A stretch of 51,195 nucleotides of DNA from a virus (IMGVR_UViG_3300030099_000549:1-51195), one strand, 5' to 3'. Positions 10,626-32,775 are shown, counted from the first letter of the stretch. Translations and numbers: made by a program. Notes: generated from the letters alone by a model not told the origin.

Positions 10626-10750
10626 TTTCTTTCTCCTTTCTTAAATCTATGTTTAAAGAATACTACCAAGTTAAGCATGGTGTTTACCGTAATCATCACA
10701 AGTATCCACCACTGCCACCACAATAGGTTTAATCCACTACACTCTATCAT
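10622..10750 (-). CDS. Single-span membrane peptide, 42 aa
   Basis: The ATG overlaps the TAA of the ribonucleotide reductase gene (TAATG), and the frame ends across the start of the next gene (ATGA). The product MIECSGLNLLWWQWWILVM... is one tryptophan-rich membrane span followed by a short basic tail (FKHRFKKGERK), giving a clear positive-inside orientation. Coupling on both sides makes it likely to be a true gene despite its size. Function unknown. Confidence 0.6.
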   Translation of the reverse strand: MIECSGLNLLWWQWWILVMITVNTMLNLVVFFKHRFKKGERK

Positions 10751-12693
10751 TATGCAGCAGTTAAGTCAACTACTTCACAAACTCCTGCAGTACATGCTAA
10801 CTCACGACCACCTGATGTAGTGTCTTCTTTCTCAAACTCTTGCAATGCAGACCAATTAATTGATGTAGGCATATGCACTTTCATTTCTTTGTATTCTTCT
10901 TCAGTACAATCCTGATAAGGTGCTTGCTTATATGTGTGTTCACTAAATGGCAAAAAGCTGATGCCTGACACTTCATCAAAGTGTTTATACACCCATGCAC
11001 CAACTTCCATCCACTCATCTTCTTTCACAGAAATTGTAACAGATGGTTTATGTTCACACCAATAACGCTGATACATAAGCCATAACTCAAGCTGTTCAAT
11101 AGCAGACATAGCAGTGCGTGTTACAGCACGTGCAGGTGATTTCATTGGAAAGCTAAACACTGTTGTGCTATCTGGCTTCATAACATCTGGCTCTGCAGGA
11201 ATACCTTGTGCTACCATGAACTGTGTTAGTGGGTCTTTATTATCACCACGAACAGTGCGAATATAATATGGGTTGTGACGAGCATGGATACCTGATGCAC
11301 TGTCTACCAACTGTGATACTGTGCCTGATGGCTTAACGCATGTGATAGCTGTGGACTGTGGTATCTTTAGCTGCTTTGCCATAGCTTTGTTTGCATCAAT
11401 AGCTACATCACGTAATGCCTCAAGTGTCTGTCCAATGTTCATACCAAGGTGAGCAGACTTACCTGCTGTCAACTGATTGTCCATGATACCTGTTAGTGAC
11501 ACACCAAGCAGACGCTCTTCTTCTGTGTTCTTCTTCCAGATACTACGCAGGTACTTAAAGTCAGTCAGAGTAGATTGGAATGTACCAAGTATTGTAGCCA
11601 AACGTACCTTCTCTGTTAGTGTTTGCTGTGTATCTGTTTCACGTACAACAACCTCAGATAAGTTACAGAATTGATAAGGACGTAATATAATTTCACTACA
11701 GGGATTACATCCGAAATCTTGTTCGGAATCTCTGCGACCATTTTTAGCTGCTTGTACTTGTGCAGACTTGCGATTAAATATACCACGCTCACCTGATTTA
11801 CTTTCGTACAAAGATAGCCATTCCCGCATAAATGTACCCATCTGTGGCTTACCTTTGTAGGCAACGCTGTTGTTTGCAAGCGCACGTTGTCCTTCGTTTT
11901 CCCACCATTGACCTGACTTCGCATGAGCCATTTGGTCATCGTTCAGGTTAGAAAGGCTAATGAGTGCGCTGCGTCTGACCCCACCGACAACTACAACCTC
12001 GCCAATCTTGCACATGATGTCATGACACTCTATTGGAAATAGCCTACGACCTGATGCTGCTTTAAACTTCTCTATACAAAACTCGAAGAGTTCTTCAAGA
12101 GGGGCTGGGCCACTGGCTCTACCACCAAAGGTTTTTAACCTTGCACCTGCAGGACGTACTTCTGATACATCCCACTGTGGTATTTGCCCTGCGTAGAGGA
12201 GCGAGATTAGTTCACGCAGTGATTTGGCCCAGCCCGGACGTGAATCGCCAACCTTGATGACTGTATCTGTGTAATGCATGTCTTCGTTGACGATTGGTAG
12301 CTTCTCAATGTTGTGACGTTCAACAGAGAAGCCTACACCTGTGCCGCACATGAGTATGTACATTGTCTCATCAAACGCACGTGGGCTATCTACAGGAACA
12401 TACGAACAGTTATATCCACCTACATTGCAACGGTCTAATGCAGGACCAGATGTCATCAAGGCTCTCATGCTTGGCATAATATTCTGGTCAAGAACAGCAG
12501 TCTCTAGTTCTGCTCTCAGTTCATCAGCTAGTTTGTAATTATGTTTAGTTAGCAGATGACCAGAAAGATAATCAAAGTATCGTGAGACTGTTTCAGTCCA
12601 CGTCTCCCTTCGTTGTTCATCCTCTTTCCATCTCGCATAACGAGACAGTGCAATAAAGTTTTGGTAATCTGTAGGTAAATGGTTGCTTATCAT
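10750..12693 (-). CDS. nrdJ: Class II (B12-dependent) ribonucleotide reductase, 647 aa
   Basis: The enzyme reduces ribonucleoside (di- or tri-)phosphates to deoxyribonucleotides with adenosylcobalamin. Visible marks are MPSMRALMTSGPALDRCN and NCSYVPVDS early on (one redox cysteine), GTGVGFSVE, the active-site motif NPCSEIILRPYQFCNLSE in the middle (Asn, Cys and Glu of the barrel), a PSGT motif (CVKPSGTVSQLVDSASG) and a C-terminal cysteine pair (LACTAGVCEVV). Length fits monomeric NrdJ of phages. There is no NrdA/B or NrdD/G pair, so this is the only reductase. It supplies dNTPs for the replication genes upstream in the same transcript and works without regard to oxygen, but requires cobalamin from the host. 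Confidence 0.95.
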   Translation of the reverse strand: MISNHLPTDYQNFIALSRYARWKEDEQRRETWTETVSRYFDYLSGHLLTKHNYKLADELRAELETAVLDQNIMPSMRALMTSGPALDRCNVGGYNCSYVPVDSPRAFDETMYILMCGTGVGFSVERHNIEKLPIVNEDMHYTDTVIKVGDSRPGWAKSLRELISLLYAGQIPQWDVSEVRPAGARLKTFGGRASGPAPLEELFEFCIEKFKAASGRRLFPIECHDIMCKIGEVVVVGGVRRSALISLSNLNDDQMAHAKSGQWWENEGQRALANNSVAYKGKPQMGTFMREWLSLYESKSGERGIFNRKSAQVQAAKNGRRDSEQDFGCNPCSEIILRPYQFCNLSEVVVRETDTQQTLTEKVRLATILGTFQSTLTDFKYLRSIWKKNTEEERLLGVSLTGIMDNQLTAGKSAHLGMNIGQTLEALRDVAIDANKAMAKQLKIPQSTAITCVKPSGTVSQLVDSASGIHARHNPYYIRTVRGDNKDPLTQFMVAQGIPAEPDVMKPDSTTVFSFPMKSPARAVTRTAMSAIEQLELWLMYQRYWCEHKPSVTISVKEDEWMEVGAWVYKHFDEVSGISFLPFSEHTYKQAPYQDCTEEEYKEMKVHMPTSINWSALQEFEKEDTTSGGRELACTAGVCEVVDLTAA

Positions 12694-25961: not shown

Positions 25962-26666
25962 TTAGCAATCAATTACAAAGCCAGACTTATCTTGCTTGGC
26001 CTTACCTTTAGCCTTTAGCCCCACGATTACACCTTGCGGGTCAAGAAAGCGCAAGTCATCCTTATCACCGTCAATGACAGGCAGACCCTTGAATGTTTTA
26101 GGTAGCTTGTCACGGAACACCACTGCCGCATTGATACCAGTATCACGCACCGCTGTCAACACCTGTTCTGCATAGTCAGGGTCAGCCTCACTGTAAGACA
26201 AGGTGAGGTGATAATTATCTGGCATTTTGGCATAGGCACGTTTGACAATCTTGGTGTAGTCATAAAACTGTATCTCTGGAAATTGCTCCATGATACCTGT
26301 TTTCTCGTACTGAATGTCACTTGTGCCATTGAGACGTATGCACGGCTTTACACCTTTCTTTGTATTGCGCTTGCTAAACTTTGTCAAGTCTTTGTACAGC
26401 GCATCCATGTAGCCTATGCGGTCTGATAGATATAATATGGTTTTGCGTTCACGCCCACGTTGCACCACGCCCATCTGCCCACGTCCAGCCGTATTGAGGC
26501 AACCCTCATGACACTTGGCCTTGTCAGCTAAAGCGCACAGATTATGCACCTTGCCCTTGAATACAGTCTTGTATGGCTTCATATACTGGATGCCTGTCTC
26601 ATACTCAGAGCCGTCACCCTTTACTGTTTTGGCATTGTTGCCCACACCGATAAGATTATACGTCAT
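25962..26666 (-). CDS. GP88-like protein with conserved cysteine motif, 234 aa
   Basis: The N-terminus has NNAKTVKGDGSEYETGIQYM and then HNLCALADKAKCHEGCLNTA with GRG following (Cys 44, 52, 56). This matches my memory of the phage 'gene product 88'/DUF7227-type family (CP-A---C---CL---GRG). The rest is alpha/beta with RIGYMDALYKDLTKF, CIRLNGTSDI and YHLTLSYSEADPDYAE. The cysteine motif could bind a metal or Fe-S cluster, and the barrel-like pattern of strands (IRLNGTSD) even recalls radical-type enzymes, but no activity is established. RBS AGGAGA is clear. It may have its own weak promoter upstream. Confidence 0.65.
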   Translation of the reverse strand: MTYNLIGVGNNAKTVKGDGSEYETGIQYMKPYKTVFKGKVHNLCALADKAKCHEGCLNTAGRGQMGVVQRGRERKTILYLSDRIGYMDALYKDLTKFSKRNTKKGVKPCIRLNGTSDIQYEKTGIMEQFPEIQFYDYTKIVKRAYAKMPDNYHLTLSYSEADPDYAEQVLTAVRDTGINAAVVFRDKLPKTFKGLPVIDGDKDDLRFLDPQGVIVGLKAKGKAKQDKSGFVIDC

Positions 26667-28762: not shown

Positions 28763-28987
28763 ATGTTTACCGCAATGATAATCGCATGTCACGTAGCTAA
28801 CAATGCAATGTGCATGACCATTACAGATAACCGTGGACCATATGAAACACCAGAACAGTGTGAGGTTCGAATAGAAGAAATGATTAAAGACCTAATTGGT
28901 ATGTGGTCGCAATACAATATGCCTATGGTATTTAAGTGGACAGGTTGTCTTGACCCAACTGAACAAAGTAAAGGTACATCTACGTAA
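28763..28987 (+). CDS. Possible exported or membrane-attached small protein, 74 aa
   Basis: MFTAMIIACHVANNAMCMTI is a hydrophobic start that could be a weak signal or anchor; then DNRGPYETPEQCEVRIEEMI and a C-terminal cysteine (KWTGCLDPTE). The cysteines suggest a disulphide outside the cytoplasm. A 'YxTxxxCexR' pattern like this is seen in small periplasmic phage proteins that I know as hypothetical. The ATG follows the upstream stop directly. Confidence 0.6.
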   Translation: MFTAMIIACHVANNAMCMTITDNRGPYETPEQCEVRIEEMIKDLIGMWSQYNMPMVFKWTGCLDPTEQSKGTST

Positions 28988-29286
28988 TGGTCTCACCATC
29001 CAAAAAGCGTAAACCTGATAGAATGCCTCCTCGCAATAAGAAGAACTTTCGCCCTACGAAGCAGGGTGCGGGTATGACTGCTGCGGGAGTGAAGGCATAT
29101 AGAAAAGCAAATCCCGGTAGTAAACTAAAGACTGCCGTTACGGGTAAAGTAAAGCCCGGAAGTAAAGATGCCAAAAGACGTAAATCATTTTGTGCTAGGT
29201 CTGCTGGTCAAATGAAAAAATTTCCAAAAGCTGCAAAAAATCCAAACAGTCGTTTGAGACAAGCACGTAGACGTTGGAAGTGTTAA
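28987..29286 (+). CDS. DUF6321-like small basic protein, 99 aa
   Basis: The protein is very rich in Lys/Arg: KQGAGMTAAGVKAYRKANPG, then KLKTAVTGKVKPGSKDAKRR, KSFCARSAGQMKKF and NPNSRLRQARRRWKC. I recognise this order from the DUF6321-type proteins of marine viruses (AG-GVKAYR--NPGSKL--AVTGKVKPGSK-AKRRKSFCARS). The role is unknown. High positive charge fits binding to packaged or replicating DNA. It is first in a run of lysine-rich proteins. Confidence 0.8.
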   Translation: MVSPSKKRKPDRMPPRNKKNFRPTKQGAGMTAAGVKAYRKANPGSKLKTAVTGKVKPGSKDAKRRKSFCARSAGQMKKFPKAAKNPNSRLRQARRRWKC

Positions 29287-29298
29287 GAGGAAAATATC

Positions 29299-30156
29299 AT
29301 GGCTGAAGATAGAAGTACAAAATCATTTAAGGGTCTTTCACAAAAAGAGACTAGAGAAAAACTAATCAGAGACCGTGCTGCACGTTTAGCACGTGATGCA
29401 AAGAAACAAGGTATTACACCTGCTGCACTTGCAAAGAAAAAAAGAGATACTTATGTAAAAGTGGTAGGTGGCGCAGCCTCGTTGCTTCCTATTGGTAAAA
29501 TTATTTCTCTTGCAAGTAAGGGTGTAAAGGCTCTGACTACAGGTGCAAAGACTGCTAAAGCAGCAAAGACTACAAGAGCAAAGTCAGCAGGAAGTAAAAC
29601 AACAAAAACAACTAAACCAAAAACAAGTGCAGCTTCTAAATCTAATCGTGCAAAATCACAAGGTGGTCGCAGTGCAGCACAGGCAAAGCAAGCACCAAAG
29701 AAACCAGCAGCTAAAAAACCAGCAGCTAAGAAGCAAGCACCAAATGTTATTACCGCTTTAAGAAATAATCCTAGAGCAAAACGGGCAATATTAGGTGGTG
29801 CAGTTACGTCTGCTACTTTGGCTACTATTGATGATATTCGTAAATCAGGTAAGGGTACAGCTGTAGCAGCACCTACATCACGTCCAAAGCGTTCATCGGT
29901 AAATGTAACTGGACCTACATCACGTCCAAAGCGTAAAGGTAATGACCCACGCAAAGGTTTTACTTCTAAAGCAACTCCGGGTGCAAAACCAACACCAAAG
30001 CGTAAATCTAAAGATAAACTTGACCCACGTGGCAATCAGGTAAAAGCTATGTCTAGTTTACCAGCAGGAGTATTACGTAAATTCCAAGGTTCTTATAATA
30101 AGAAAACAGAAAAGCTGAAGAACATTGGTGGCAAAACATACGTAATGAAGAGGTAG
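29299..30156 (+). CDS. Histone H1-like lysine/alanine-rich protein, 285 aa
   Basis: An N-terminal basic helix (ETREKLIRDRAARLARDAKK) and a hydrophobic segment (VVGGAASLLPIGKIISLASK) are followed by a long Lys/Ala/Thr/Pro region: KTTKTTKPKTSAASKSNRAK, KKPAAKKPAAKKQAP. Then come AILGGAVTSATLATIDD and a duplicated unit PTSRPKR at two places. The C-terminal 90 residues are again basic. The composition is that of eukaryotic H1 tails and bacterial histone-like proteins, so DNA condensation inside the head or in the cell is likely. AGAGGAAAATATC precedes the ATG. A SET-domain gene lies 1.5 kb downstream. Confidence 0.75.
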   Translation: MAEDRSTKSFKGLSQKETREKLIRDRAARLARDAKKQGITPAALAKKKRDTYVKVVGGAASLLPIGKIISLASKGVKALTTGAKTAKAAKTTRAKSAGSKTTKTTKPKTSAASKSNRAKSQGGRSAAQAKQAPKKPAAKKPAAKKQAPNVITALRNNPRAKRAILGGAVTSATLATIDDIRKSGKGTAVAAPTSRPKRSSVNVTGPTSRPKRKGNDPRKGFTSKATPGAKPTPKRKSKDKLDPRGNQVKAMSSLPAGVLRKFQGSYNKKTEKLKNIGGKTYVMKR

Positions 30157-30158
30157 AT

Positions 30159-30557
30159 ATGGCAGACTTATCACAAGTAGAAAATATGACAGCTAACAAA
30201 CTGCTTGCTATTGTTAATGATGAAAGTCAAACAAAAGATATGAGAGCAGCGGCAAAGCGTGAGTTAGCTACACGTTCTATGGGTCAGGATACCACCAAAG
30301 CACTAAAGCGGTCTGAAGGTGGAGACACTCCTAAGAGAAGCAAAAAGAAAGTACCAGCTATTTCTATTAGCGTAGGCATGGTAGAAATACCAAAAGGCAA
30401 AGGCAAAGCTAAGATGATGAAGGGTGGTATGGCTAATGGTAGACAACATATGTATCTTAATGATGGTGGGTTAGTAACAGATAACTTAAATCCCGGATTA
30501 CAAGCGTTAGCTAAAAAACGTCCAGACGTAGTTAAGAAGATTTTAAAGAAGTCTTAA
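30159..30557 (+). CDS. Basic protein with MxxGG motif, 132 aa
   Basis: The N-terminal half is helical (ENMTANKLLAIVNDESQTKD; RAAAKRELATRSMG). The middle is lysine-rich (SKKKVPAIS; KGKGKAKMMKGGMANG) and carries the motif MMKGGMA and later LNDGGLVTDN, related to the motif in several virion-type proteins of this genome. The end is KKRPDVVKKILKKS. No enzyme domain is seen. A virion-associated role is my inference from the motif. Confidence 0.65.
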   Translation: MADLSQVENMTANKLLAIVNDESQTKDMRAAAKRELATRSMGQDTTKALKRSEGGDTPKRSKKKVPAISISVGMVEIPKGKGKAKMMKGGMANGRQHMYLNDGGLVTDNLNPGLQALAKKRPDVVKKILKKS

Positions 30558-30565
30558 TTGTTGCT

Positions 30566-30712
30566 ATGAAAAAACAAAATCAAAAGAAGGTAAAGAAAGT
30601 AATTAAAGGCTTAAAAAAAGCCTCTAAGTTACATGCTGGTCAAGCTAGAACATTACAAGGAGTTCTTAATGGCAAACCCAAGAGTGCCAAGAAAAAAAGG
30701 TCAGCCAGCTAA
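30566..30712 (+). CDS. Very basic small protein, 48 aa
   Basis: MKKQNQKKVKKVIKGLKKAS... is almost half Lys/Arg by eye and ends KPKSAKKKRSAS. Its frame overlaps the next gene by 44 bases, and no strong ribosome site is seen. The highly biased composition in this lysine-rich gene block supports it. Confidence 0.5.
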   Translation: MKKQNQKKVKKVIKGLKKASKLHAGQARTLQGVLNGKPKSAKKKRSAS

Positions 30713-30971
30713 AAGTAAAAAACATAGTGACCTGTACACAGATGAAGACCCAAAGGGTACAATCAAGGGTCTGAAGTTTGCTACCGTAAAAGATGCACAG
30801 GCATCTGTACGTAAGATAAAAGCATCTAGCAGAAGTCACAATCATAAGACACAGGCTGCTATAGCTATGGAGCAACGGGCTAGAGTTGCAGGTAAAGTAG
30901 CAGCAGCAAATGTATATAGACGTTTTATAGAATCGCAAAAGAAGAAGACACGTGCATCCCGTAGAAGCTGA
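30669..30971 (+). CDS. Conserved basic marine-phage protein, 100 aa
   Basis: I start at ATG 30669 (AGGAG five bases upstream), not at the in-frame ATG at 30633. The product reads MANPRVPRKKGQPAKSKKHS, then LYTDEDPKGTIKGLKFATVK, ASVRKIKASSRSHNHKTQAA, and AMEQRARVAGKVAAANVYRR. The 'HSDLYTDE-PKGTIKGL' and 'HNHK-QAA-AM-QRA' segments are familiar to me from marine virus hypothetical proteins. Function unknown; the charge suggests nucleic acid binding. Confidence 0.75.
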   Translation: MANPRVPRKKGQPAKSKKHSDLYTDEDPKGTIKGLKFATVKDAQASVRKIKASSRSHNHKTQAAIAMEQRARVAGKVAAANVYRRFIESQKKKTRASRRS

Positions 30972-31479
30972 CATTCGTAAGTGGTCGCACGACTTTCTTG
31001 AAATACCAAACAAAATGTTAAACGGACTGCCACCATGTCCGTATGCTAAACAAGCATGGTTACAGAATAAAGTTGTATTTAGTATTAATACAGGGTTAGA
31101 TGGTCTAGCAAAAGAAGTAGCTGACTTTGACCAACACGAATATGATATAGTTATTTGGGCATCTCAATACTTGCTCGACATGGAATATCTTGATGGGTGG
31201 TGTGATGGCGTAAATGAAGCCATGTCAATTGCTGGTCACGATATGCACCTGATGGTGTTTCATCCAGACTACGATGCTACTGAAGCAGGTTTGGATTTTT
31301 TAGTTGAAGATGATGTAACTAACGATGAGTTAGAATACTGCATGGTCTTTGTACAGAAGTTATCATTACTTGATGATGCTTCACTTAGCTTGGAAAAGTC
31401 TGGATACTACCAGCACTTTCCTAAAGAAACTTATGAATCGCTGGTAGTTGATAGAAGGAGACTAAGAAATGGCGGGTAA
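30952..31479 (+). CDS. Protein of unknown function with LNGLPPCPYA motif, 175 aa
   Basis: The start is GTG, overlapping the previous gene by 20 bases; no ATG precedes the conserved beginning. EADIRKWSHDFLEIPNKMLN + GLPPCPYAKQAW is followed by alpha/beta segments and an acidic end. The N-terminal pattern (W--FLE--N--L-GLPPCP-A--AW) recalls the DUF1415 family and conserved cyanophage proteins. No function is established. The acidic, folded character differs from the basic neighbours. Confidence 0.65.
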   Translation: MHPVEADIRKWSHDFLEIPNKMLNGLPPCPYAKQAWLQNKVVFSINTGLDGLAKEVADFDQHEYDIVIWASQYLLDMEYLDGWCDGVNEAMSIAGHDMHLMVFHPDYDATEAGLDFLVEDDVTNDELEYCMVFVQKLSLLDDASLSLEKSGYYQHFPKETYESLVVDRRRLRNGG

Positions 31480-31648
31480 AGCAAAAATGGCTAAAAAGAA
31501 AATGCGTGGCGGTGGTATGGCTAAAAGGCGTATGGCTGGTGGCGGCATGGCTAAAATGGCTAAGAAAAAAATGATGGGCGGTGGCATGGCCAAGATGTCC
31601 AAAAAGAAAAAAATGATGCGTGGCGGAATGGCTAAAAAGAAAAAGTAA
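31469..31648 (+). CDS. Repetitive Met/Gly/Lys protein made of MxGGGMAK units, 59 aa
   Basis: The whole product is built of four units: KMRGGGMAKR, RMAGGGMAKM, KMMGGGMAKM and MMRGGMAKKK, with lysine runs between. AAGGAG lies before the ATG, and the stop overlaps the next ATG (TAATG). The start overlaps the previous stop by 11 bases. Only Met, Ala, Gly, Lys, Arg and one Ser occur. The unit equals the MxxGG(L/M)A motif found once or twice in larger virion-type proteins in this window. Its function is unknown. It may be a membrane- or nucleic acid-binding peptide or a substrate of the adjacent SET enzyme. Confidence 0.7.
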   Translation: MAGKAKMAKKKMRGGGMAKRRMAGGGMAKMAKKKMMGGGMAKMSKKKKMMRGGMAKKKK

Positions 31649-32004
31649 TGATATACGTTGCTGATTCTAGCATACACGGACAAGGCGTATTTACAGATAA
31701 GGATATTTCTCAAGATGATGTAATTGAGTTATGTCCTTATCTGGTCGCTGACAAAGATGATTTTTCAGATACGTGTATATTACATAACTATATGTTTTAT
31801 TCTCCGTATGAAGATGACGAAGATTTTTTTATACCTTTAGGTTTAGGAATGATTTATAATCATAGTAATACTCCAAATGCAGAGTGGACTATAGATGATG
31901 ATAATGAAAACTATATTACATTCTTTGCTACAAAAAATATAAAAGCTGGGGAAGAAATACTCCACGACTACGGAACACTATATTGGAATAGTAGAGATGG
32001 CTAG
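31648..32004 (+). CDS. SET-domain protein (putative protein lysine methyltransferase), 118 aa
   Basis: The compact SET fold is complete: SSIHGQGVFTDKDISQDDVI (7-26), then IPLGLGMIYNHSNTPNAEW (62-80) with NHS at 71-73, FFATKNIKAGEEILHDYG (92-109) with the catalytic-type Tyr 108, and a C-terminal LYW. These match 'GxGVFA..I..GE.I', 'NHS..PN' and 'F.A...I..GEEL..DYG' of SET methyltransferases. There is no pre-SET or post-SET zinc cluster. SET enzymes transfer methyl from S-adenosylmethionine to protein lysine. The gene is TAATG-coupled to the MxGGGMAK repeat gene and next to several Lys-rich genes, so these phage proteins are the natural candidate substrates. Confidence 0.88.
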   Translation: MIYVADSSIHGQGVFTDKDISQDDVIELCPYLVADKDDFSDTCILHNYMFYSPYEDDEDFFIPLGLGMIYNHSNTPNAEWTIDDDNENYITFFATKNIKAGEEILHDYGTLYWNSRDG

Positions 32005-32110
32005 GTTTTATAGCACAGAAAAACTAGAAAAGAAAAGACCAAAGCGCAGACCCGGAGTACACAAAAAGAATGTTAATAAACGTAACAAACCTAAAACGTA
32101 CTTTGGTTAG
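31997..32110 (+). CDS. Small basic protein with RPKRRPGVHKK motif, 37 aa
   Basis: MARFYSTEKLEKKRPKRRPG + VHKKNVNKRNKPKTYFG. The segment RPKRRPGVH is common in small proteins of marine phages. It overlaps the end of the SET gene by eight bases. Function unknown; strongly basic. Confidence 0.65.
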   Translation: MARFYSTEKLEKKRPKRRPGVHKKNVNKRNKPKTYFG

Positions 32111-32210
32111 ATACTTTGGATTGGCTTTGCTCAATATGGGCAAGCCTTTTACTTCTATAGGCAACTGGTTTTGGCGTAAACATAAAACTGTGTTAGATTG
32201 GAATGACTAA
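32070..32210 (+). CDS. Small protein, 46 aa (start uncertain)
   Basis: The frame ends TAATG into the next gene, which supports it. From ATG 32070 the product reads MLINVTNLKRTLVRYFGLAL, then LNMGKPFTSIGNWFWRKHKT and VLDWND. A shorter 24-aa form from ATG 32136 begins MGKPFTSIGNWFW and avoids most overlap with the previous gene. GGAG lies 12 bases before the long start. An aromatic-rich end is the only notable feature. Confidence 0.45.
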   Translation: MLINVTNLKRTLVRYFGLALLNMGKPFTSIGNWFWRKHKTVLDWND

Positions 32211-32566
32211 TGCCTGTAGCTAGTAATGGCTCAAAGTTTACAACTGATATAACTGCTGTGGGTACAGGAGATACTGATTGTTATCTCGTGCCTAAGAATC
32301 ATGTGTCTGTAGTAAGGCATTTGCTATTAACTAATGCTAATGCAAGCGCAAGAACATTCACAATAAAGATATATGAAAAAGTTCCTAATAGTACAACCAC
32401 TATAATTACTGCACACTCACTAGCCACTATAACATCAGAGTCAATCTTTACTTTAGACAAACCTTTATTTTTAAAATCAGAAGATAAGATAATTATTTCT
32501 GCTAGTGCTACCAGTAGTATTGTTGCTACAATTTCAGCAGAAGAATTTTTTGACCCTAATGCATAG
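32210..32566 (+). CDS. Beta-sandwich late protein, 118 aa
   Basis: The protein is nearly all beta by eye: DTDCYLVPKNHVSVVRHLLL, then NANASARTFTIKIYE, SIFTLDKPLFLKSEDKIIIS. The order '-LVP-N--SVVRHLLL-N-', 'F-L--P-FL---D-I-I-AS' resembles the small beta proteins that sit on tails or capsids in marine phages, and a related architecture appears in the 108-aa protein at 48884-49210. A virion accessory role is inferred. The gene is coupled to the one before by TAATG. Confidence 0.65.
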   Translation: MPVASNGSKFTTDITAVGTGDTDCYLVPKNHVSVVRHLLLTNANASARTFTIKIYEKVPNSTTTIITAHSLATITSESIFTLDKPLFLKSEDKIIISASATSSIVATISAEEFFDPNA

Positions 32567-32574
32567 GTAATAGT

Positions 32575-32775
32575 ATGGCTAAAAAGAAAAAAGCTAAAAG
32601 CACCGTAAATAAAGCAGGTAACTATACAAAACCTGAATTAAGAAAACGTATATTTAATCGCATTAAAGCTGGCTCAAAAGGCGGAAAGCCGGGTCAGTGG
32701 TCGGCAAGAAAAGCTCAAATGCTTGCGGTTGCTTATAAAAAAGCTGGCGGTGGGTACAAGACCCGAAAGGCTTGA
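32575..32775 (+). CDS. Small basic protein, 66 aa
   Basis: MAKKKKAKSTVNKAGNYTKP, then ELRKRIFNRIKAGSKGGKPG and QWSARKAQMLAVAYKKAGGG. The segment GNYTKP-LRKR-F--IKAGSKGG--GQWSARKAQ-LA--YK is one I know from many marine phage genomes as hypothetical. Eight bases separate it from the previous stop. Charge again suggests DNA or RNA binding. Confidence 0.75.
   Translation: MAKKKKAKSTVNKAGNYTKPELRKRIFNRIKAGSKGGKPGQWSARKAQMLAVAYKKAGGGYKTRKA

Follow-up and report, generated by a model that had tools for sequence, protein, structure and literature searches.

The SET gene and its late-region neighborhood

The window, i.e. the entire 51,195-nucleotide stretch of viral DNA analyzed here (contained in a virus record of 53,254 bases), represents a nearly complete marine podovirus of the HMO-2011 type. 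Its late region, 5' of the terminase and portal genes, carries a block of short ORFs (28987-32775), which includes a gene predicted to code for a SET-domain protein-lysine methyltransferase of the vSET/SpSet7 class (31648-32004, 118 aa); this gene and the neighbors described below are all on the plus strand. The portal and capsid proteins are 84.5% and 86.4% identical, respectively, to those of Puniceispirillum phage HMO-2011, the terminase is likewise HMO-2011-like, and the late block is shared with conserved gene order. The host group of HMO-2011 is the SAR116 alphaproteobacteria, and the HMO-2011-type group also includes phages of RCA and SAR11 bacteria; the host suggested for the window phage comes from its kinship with HMO-2011. 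Phages of this type have been described as dominant in the ocean and as widely distributed there (PMC9038755). In the early region the window also codes for a ribonucleotide reductase of the B12-dependent type as well as for a member of the Gp88 family (10750-12693 and 25962-26666 (-)).

The SET protein is a virus-encoded single domain whose size fits the vSET-type length of about 119 aa. The sequence-only reading had described it as a complete small SET domain, and this is borne out by a match to Pfam SET (PF00856) covering profile positions 1-105 of 105 (E=1.6e-16, 61.1 bits against a curated cut-off of 22.4). All the catalytic motifs were found, namely G11-x-G13, N71-H72-S73 with P76-N77 (the NHS-PN signature), E103 and the Tyr-Gly pair Y108-G109, with G13, N71, H72, N77, E103 and Y108 being invariant in an alignment of 23 sequences. 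Phmmer searches against solved structures recovered Schizosaccharomyces pombe Set7 (5h6z, 9e-13), followed by Plasmodium falciparum PFL0690c (4rz0) and PBCV-1 vSET (1n3j, 3e-11). An AlphaFold2 model built on 23 relatives (mean pLDDT 85.8) has a SET fold, with the same three proteins as its top matches (Z 14.8 to 4rz0, 14.4 to vSET and 13.2 to Set7). The dN/dS values of 0.06-0.29 indicate purifying selection, the distant pairs being near synonymous saturation. Lysine methyltransferase activity of the 31648-32004 product is thus well supported by sequence, predicted fold and selection; the gene looks intact and its enzyme is apparently working, with SAM-dependent transfer to protein lysine being the reaction expected of its family.

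Set7 and PFL0690c, the solved structures that match best in both sequence and fold, are eukaryotic enzymes with about 30-35% identity to the phage protein. PBCV-1 vSET (A612L, 119 aa; 1n3j, 3kma), for which histone H3K27 is the reported target (PMC3089700), is likewise a viral single SET domain of near-equal length, with 33% identity. However, PBCV-1 has a eukaryotic host, whereas the host of the phage is a bacterium without such histones and the nearest kin of the phage protein are SAR116 genes (see below). No report of a SET-domain lysine methyltransferase in HMO-2011-type phages was found in the open-access literature.

Combined lysine and arginine content reaches at least 25% in seven ORFs of the block (starting at 28987, 29299, 30566, 30633, 31469, 31997 and 32575), in agreement with the seven basic proteins counted earlier around SET. 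The block also has acidic members, namely SET itself (net charge -19) and a 175-aa protein (30952-31479, net -19; phrog_28122, 6.1e-76), which is found with or without SET and forms the left flank of a variable slot. At the 5' end of the block lies a 99-aa basic DUF6321 protein (28987-29286; Pfam 6.6e-14), whose relatives were recovered from 356 phage records, chiefly of cyanophages and pelagiphages. Proteins about 80% identical to it are encoded by Pelagibacter phages of other types, and several long PHROG families match it at their C-termini; by these matches it appears to be a mobile basic module. The next gene codes for a basic protein of 285 aa (29299-30156, net +61), for which the earlier label "H1-like" holds in terms of composition but not of family, as searches of Pfam and PHROG gave no match; relatives 80% identical to it occur in SET-lacking phages. 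These are followed by a moderately basic 132-aa protein kept with or without SET (30159-30557) and by a basic protein related to cyanophage proteins (30633-30971, 112 aa as listed, although its start may be 30669).

Immediately 5' of SET is a 59-aa Lys/Met/Gly-rich protein with an MxGGGMAK repeat (31469-31648), which bears the allele typical of SET-containing loci (GKAKMAK) and overlaps the SET start by one nucleotide. On the other side, a 37-aa basic protein (31997-32110) overlaps the SET gene by 8 nt, and a 66-aa basic protein (32575-32775; phrog_17747), present in many other marine phages, including unrelated ones lacking SET, forms the right flank of the slot. The TAATG junction between the MxGGGMAK and SET genes, earlier read as a coupling of the two, is real but ordinary: a 1-nt overlap of this kind occurs at 6 of the 23 junctions in this operon, and it was therefore dropped as a sign of special coupling.

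An optional gene in a conserved basic block

HMO-2011 and the Roseobacter CRP phages, which are of the same phage type as the window, also encode basic proteins in this region. In HMO-2011 five of 16 CDS have at least 25% lysine and arginine, among them one for a 345-aa protein of net charge +61, located in the region that in the window holds the 285-aa protein, and an MxGGGMAK ORF is present in both HMO-2011 and CRP-345. Unlike the window, however, the complete genomes of HMO-2011, CRP-1 and CRP-345 lack a SET gene, and no SET domain occurs anywhere in them or in seven further contigs of 53.6-62 kb (one of which, G525, is of another phage type).

Related loci were collected via SET (40), via the acidic flank gene at 30952 (74) and via the basic gene at 32575 (80); as these scans used peptide patterns drawn from the window, the samples are skewed to its near relatives. 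Dereplication yielded 55 slot-spanning loci, 25 with and 30 without SET. When SET status is placed on the tree of the 30952 flank protein, about ten changes are required, at least seven of which are forced by well-supported branches. In the pair L096/L099, whose 30952 proteins are 98% identical, a near-clean SET-sized insert lies between the MxGGGMAK stop and 31997, and the DNA match returns on both sides of it. SET is an optional insert in a single slot of the late operon, the slot lying between the MxGGGMAK gene and 31997, 32210 or 32575. Raw associations of the presence of 30633, 32210 and 34667 with that of SET were set aside as a lineage effect. HMO-2011 (L042, 7358-8440) has a 419-aa structural-protein gene immediately 3' of its MxGGGMAK ORF and a gene annotated as a methanesulfonate monooxygenase, and therefore the late region accepts variable cargo.

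Such frequent gains and losses might suggest that SET is a passenger with no current role in infection, retained only briefly after repeated transfer. Against this, the gene is under purifying selection, its catalytic residues are invariant, and the phage versions form a single old clade spread across many phages, so that we regard a mere passenger as highly improbable.

The presence of seven basic proteins near SET had suggested a chromatin-like system, in which SET would be dedicated to modifying the entire block. There are cellular precedents in archaea and Chlamydia, where small basic nucleoid proteins are the reported targets of prokaryotic SET enzymes (the Methanosarcina Go1-SET acting on MC1-alpha, the chlamydial SET associated with Hc1/Hc2; PMC3980110, PMC3089700); phage SET is likened to them for this reported activity, and a corresponding pairing of enzyme and target would be hypothetical in the phage. 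However, basic proteins occur without SET in 30 of the 55 loci and in cultured phages, and SET presence does not predict the genes at 28987, 29299 or 30159 across the dereplicated loci. Since these proteins persist in SET-lacking relatives, and several turn up in unrelated marine phages as well, the block does not constitute a SET system: its basic proteins belong to what HMO-2011-type phages, or marine phages more widely, normally encode, and are present without SET. A gene-neighborhood survey had been proposed as a check, and it went against the idea, as basic DNA-binding proteins do not adjoin the SET genes of SAR116 or of other viruses. A SET enzyme serving the whole block is accordingly very unlikely.

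The MxGGGMAK allele adjoining SET

An MxGGGMAK-type ORF follows 30952 directly in all 55 loci, with or without SET (a script detected 53 of these ORFs, and those of L089 and L092 were recognized by eye). An initial impression that this ORF is rarer without SET (17 of 30 loci) was dropped as an artefact of a narrow repeat pattern, because reading the ORFs located it in every locus. What distinguishes the two groups is the allele. The GKAKMAK form was observed in 24 of the 25 loci with SET and in none of the 30 without; in a check set gathered with the repeat pattern instead of SET, which partially overlaps the first, the figures are 26 of 31 and 0 of 43 distinct alleles. The rows of neither set are independent, and Fisher values for them therefore do not amount to probabilities. 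Many alleles from SET-lacking loci have GKTK at this position. A looser motif, [AM]GGGMAKM[SA]K, was discarded: its initial 25/25 dropped to 22/38 once the set was widened, and GKAKMAK held.

Among pairs matched for divergence of the 30952 protein (0.88-0.95), MxGGGMAK identity is 0.82 when the two loci agree in SET status and 0.68 when they differ (n=37/19), and in a second matched bin the values are 0.98 and 0.73 (n=17/2). No comparable drop is seen in the 0.88-0.95 bin for 30633 (0.94/0.94), 31997 (0.89/0.89) or 32575 (0.80/0.83). As MxGGGMAK identity falls and that of 31997 is steady, the MxGGGMAK gene and SET co-switch, while 31997 does not, despite its overlap with the SET end. The SET-type allele is kept in L021 even though a 32210-type gene intervenes there.

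These observations raise the prospect of a cassette with SET as the writer and the MxGGGMAK protein as its substrate, in which methylation of a cis-encoded, disordered lysine-rich protein would alter its binding to DNA, RNA or protein. The adjacency of the two genes, the allele distribution, the identity drop specific to MxGGGMAK, the allele of L021 and the reported action of prokaryotic SET enzymes on nucleoid proteins all fit such an arrangement. Nevertheless, all SET-lacking relatives have MxGGGMAK proteins, and the coupling is not absolute, since there are five SET-containing exceptions to GKAKMAK, two of which (L288 and L294) plainly carry alleles of the type found without SET. Furthermore, the accuracy with which the nearest neighbor (1-NN) predicts SET status declines to either side of SET. 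The MxGGGMAK allele is co-inherited with SET, but may be hitchhiking, since a 180-bp gene that is itself divergent, with SET on one side and a well-conserved gene on the other, would travel along when recombination occurs between conserved flanks. Thus, we entertain a writer-substrate cassette tentatively, as a minority possibility. It is a little more doubtful still that SET recognizes the GKAKMAK form of the MxGGGMAK protein and methylates it, which would give a bacterial virus a mark resembling those on histone tails.

SAR116 relatives and candidate substrates

The best cellular relatives of phage SET, as recovered in one scan of bacterial genomes, are genes of the SAR116 cluster (L194-L198, L200), which are 50-54% identical to it, code for proteins of 122-149 aa and have acidic stretches in common with the phage protein. 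They differ in being single chromosomal genes, situated in several contexts amid metabolic and transport genes. Of the 136 genomes of the SAR116 order (a label based on L198), 55 have one SET match each. Across a class-level sample of 385 genomes, scores of 120-130 bits are reached by the SAR116 genes and of at most 76 bits by all others. In a phylogenetic tree the phage SETs form one clade (support 98/98), with the SAR116 genes nearest to them in a polytomy. These relationships indicate that phage SET and the SAR116 chromosomal gene share ancestry, the simplest reading being that SET was probably captured once from a SAR116-type host and then spread among phages; the direction from host to phage is one that we infer, the SAR116 rows sitting in a polytomy.

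No recurrent histone-like or ribosomal neighbor was observed at the SAR116 SET genes, whose conserved neighbors offer no clue to the substrate. The MxGGGMAK repeat was matched in none of the 136 genomes by an exact-match DNA pattern, which diverged repeats could escape. This counts against a writer-substrate cassette: as the SAR116 homologs act in cells in which the repeat was not found, the substrate of SET is somewhat more likely to be a host protein than the MxGGGMAK protein. The latter is the best candidate among the phage proteins, and the existence of a SET-specific allele is more in keeping with a substrate encoded by the phage than with one that is purely of the host.

The reading that we prefer, with its chances about evenly balanced, is that SET is a functional SAM-dependent auxiliary methyltransferase of HMO-2011-type phages, of SAR116-type kinship and with a host protein as its target. 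Under this proposal the gene would have come from a SAR116-type host by one capture and thereafter moved between phages by recombination; during infection the enzyme would methylate one or a few lysines of a host protein also targeted by the SAR116 enzyme, and this might tune host functions, or translation or nucleoid function, to the advantage of the phage. Direction of transfer, catalysis, substrate and benefit are all conditional in this scheme. The initial chromatin-like interpretation, which had named host ribosomal or nucleoid proteins as the alternative substrate, was too broad in embracing a block that is conserved while SET comes and goes alone. Its link between SET and the MxGGGMAK protein is stronger than could have been known at that point, and because a SET-specific allele switches with SET this protein stays a credible substrate; the host-protein alternative is in turn strengthened by the existence of the SAR116 homologs. 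SET would thus be a protein methyltransferase of host type that HMO-2011-type phages acquire and lose, with a partner allele switching along, and might offer a concrete and testable example of a phage controlling a bacterial or phage protein by protein methylation.

At distant viral SET loci a consistent basic neighbor was looked for and none was found, with ordinary structural or metabolic genes adjoining SET. An 80.9-kb viral contig (L027, 5932-6746) has a tandem pair of SET genes adjoining tail-sheath-like and other structural genes, and a 735-kb uncultured phage record (LR756501.1, 692231-692545) contains a SET domain with 39.6% identity.
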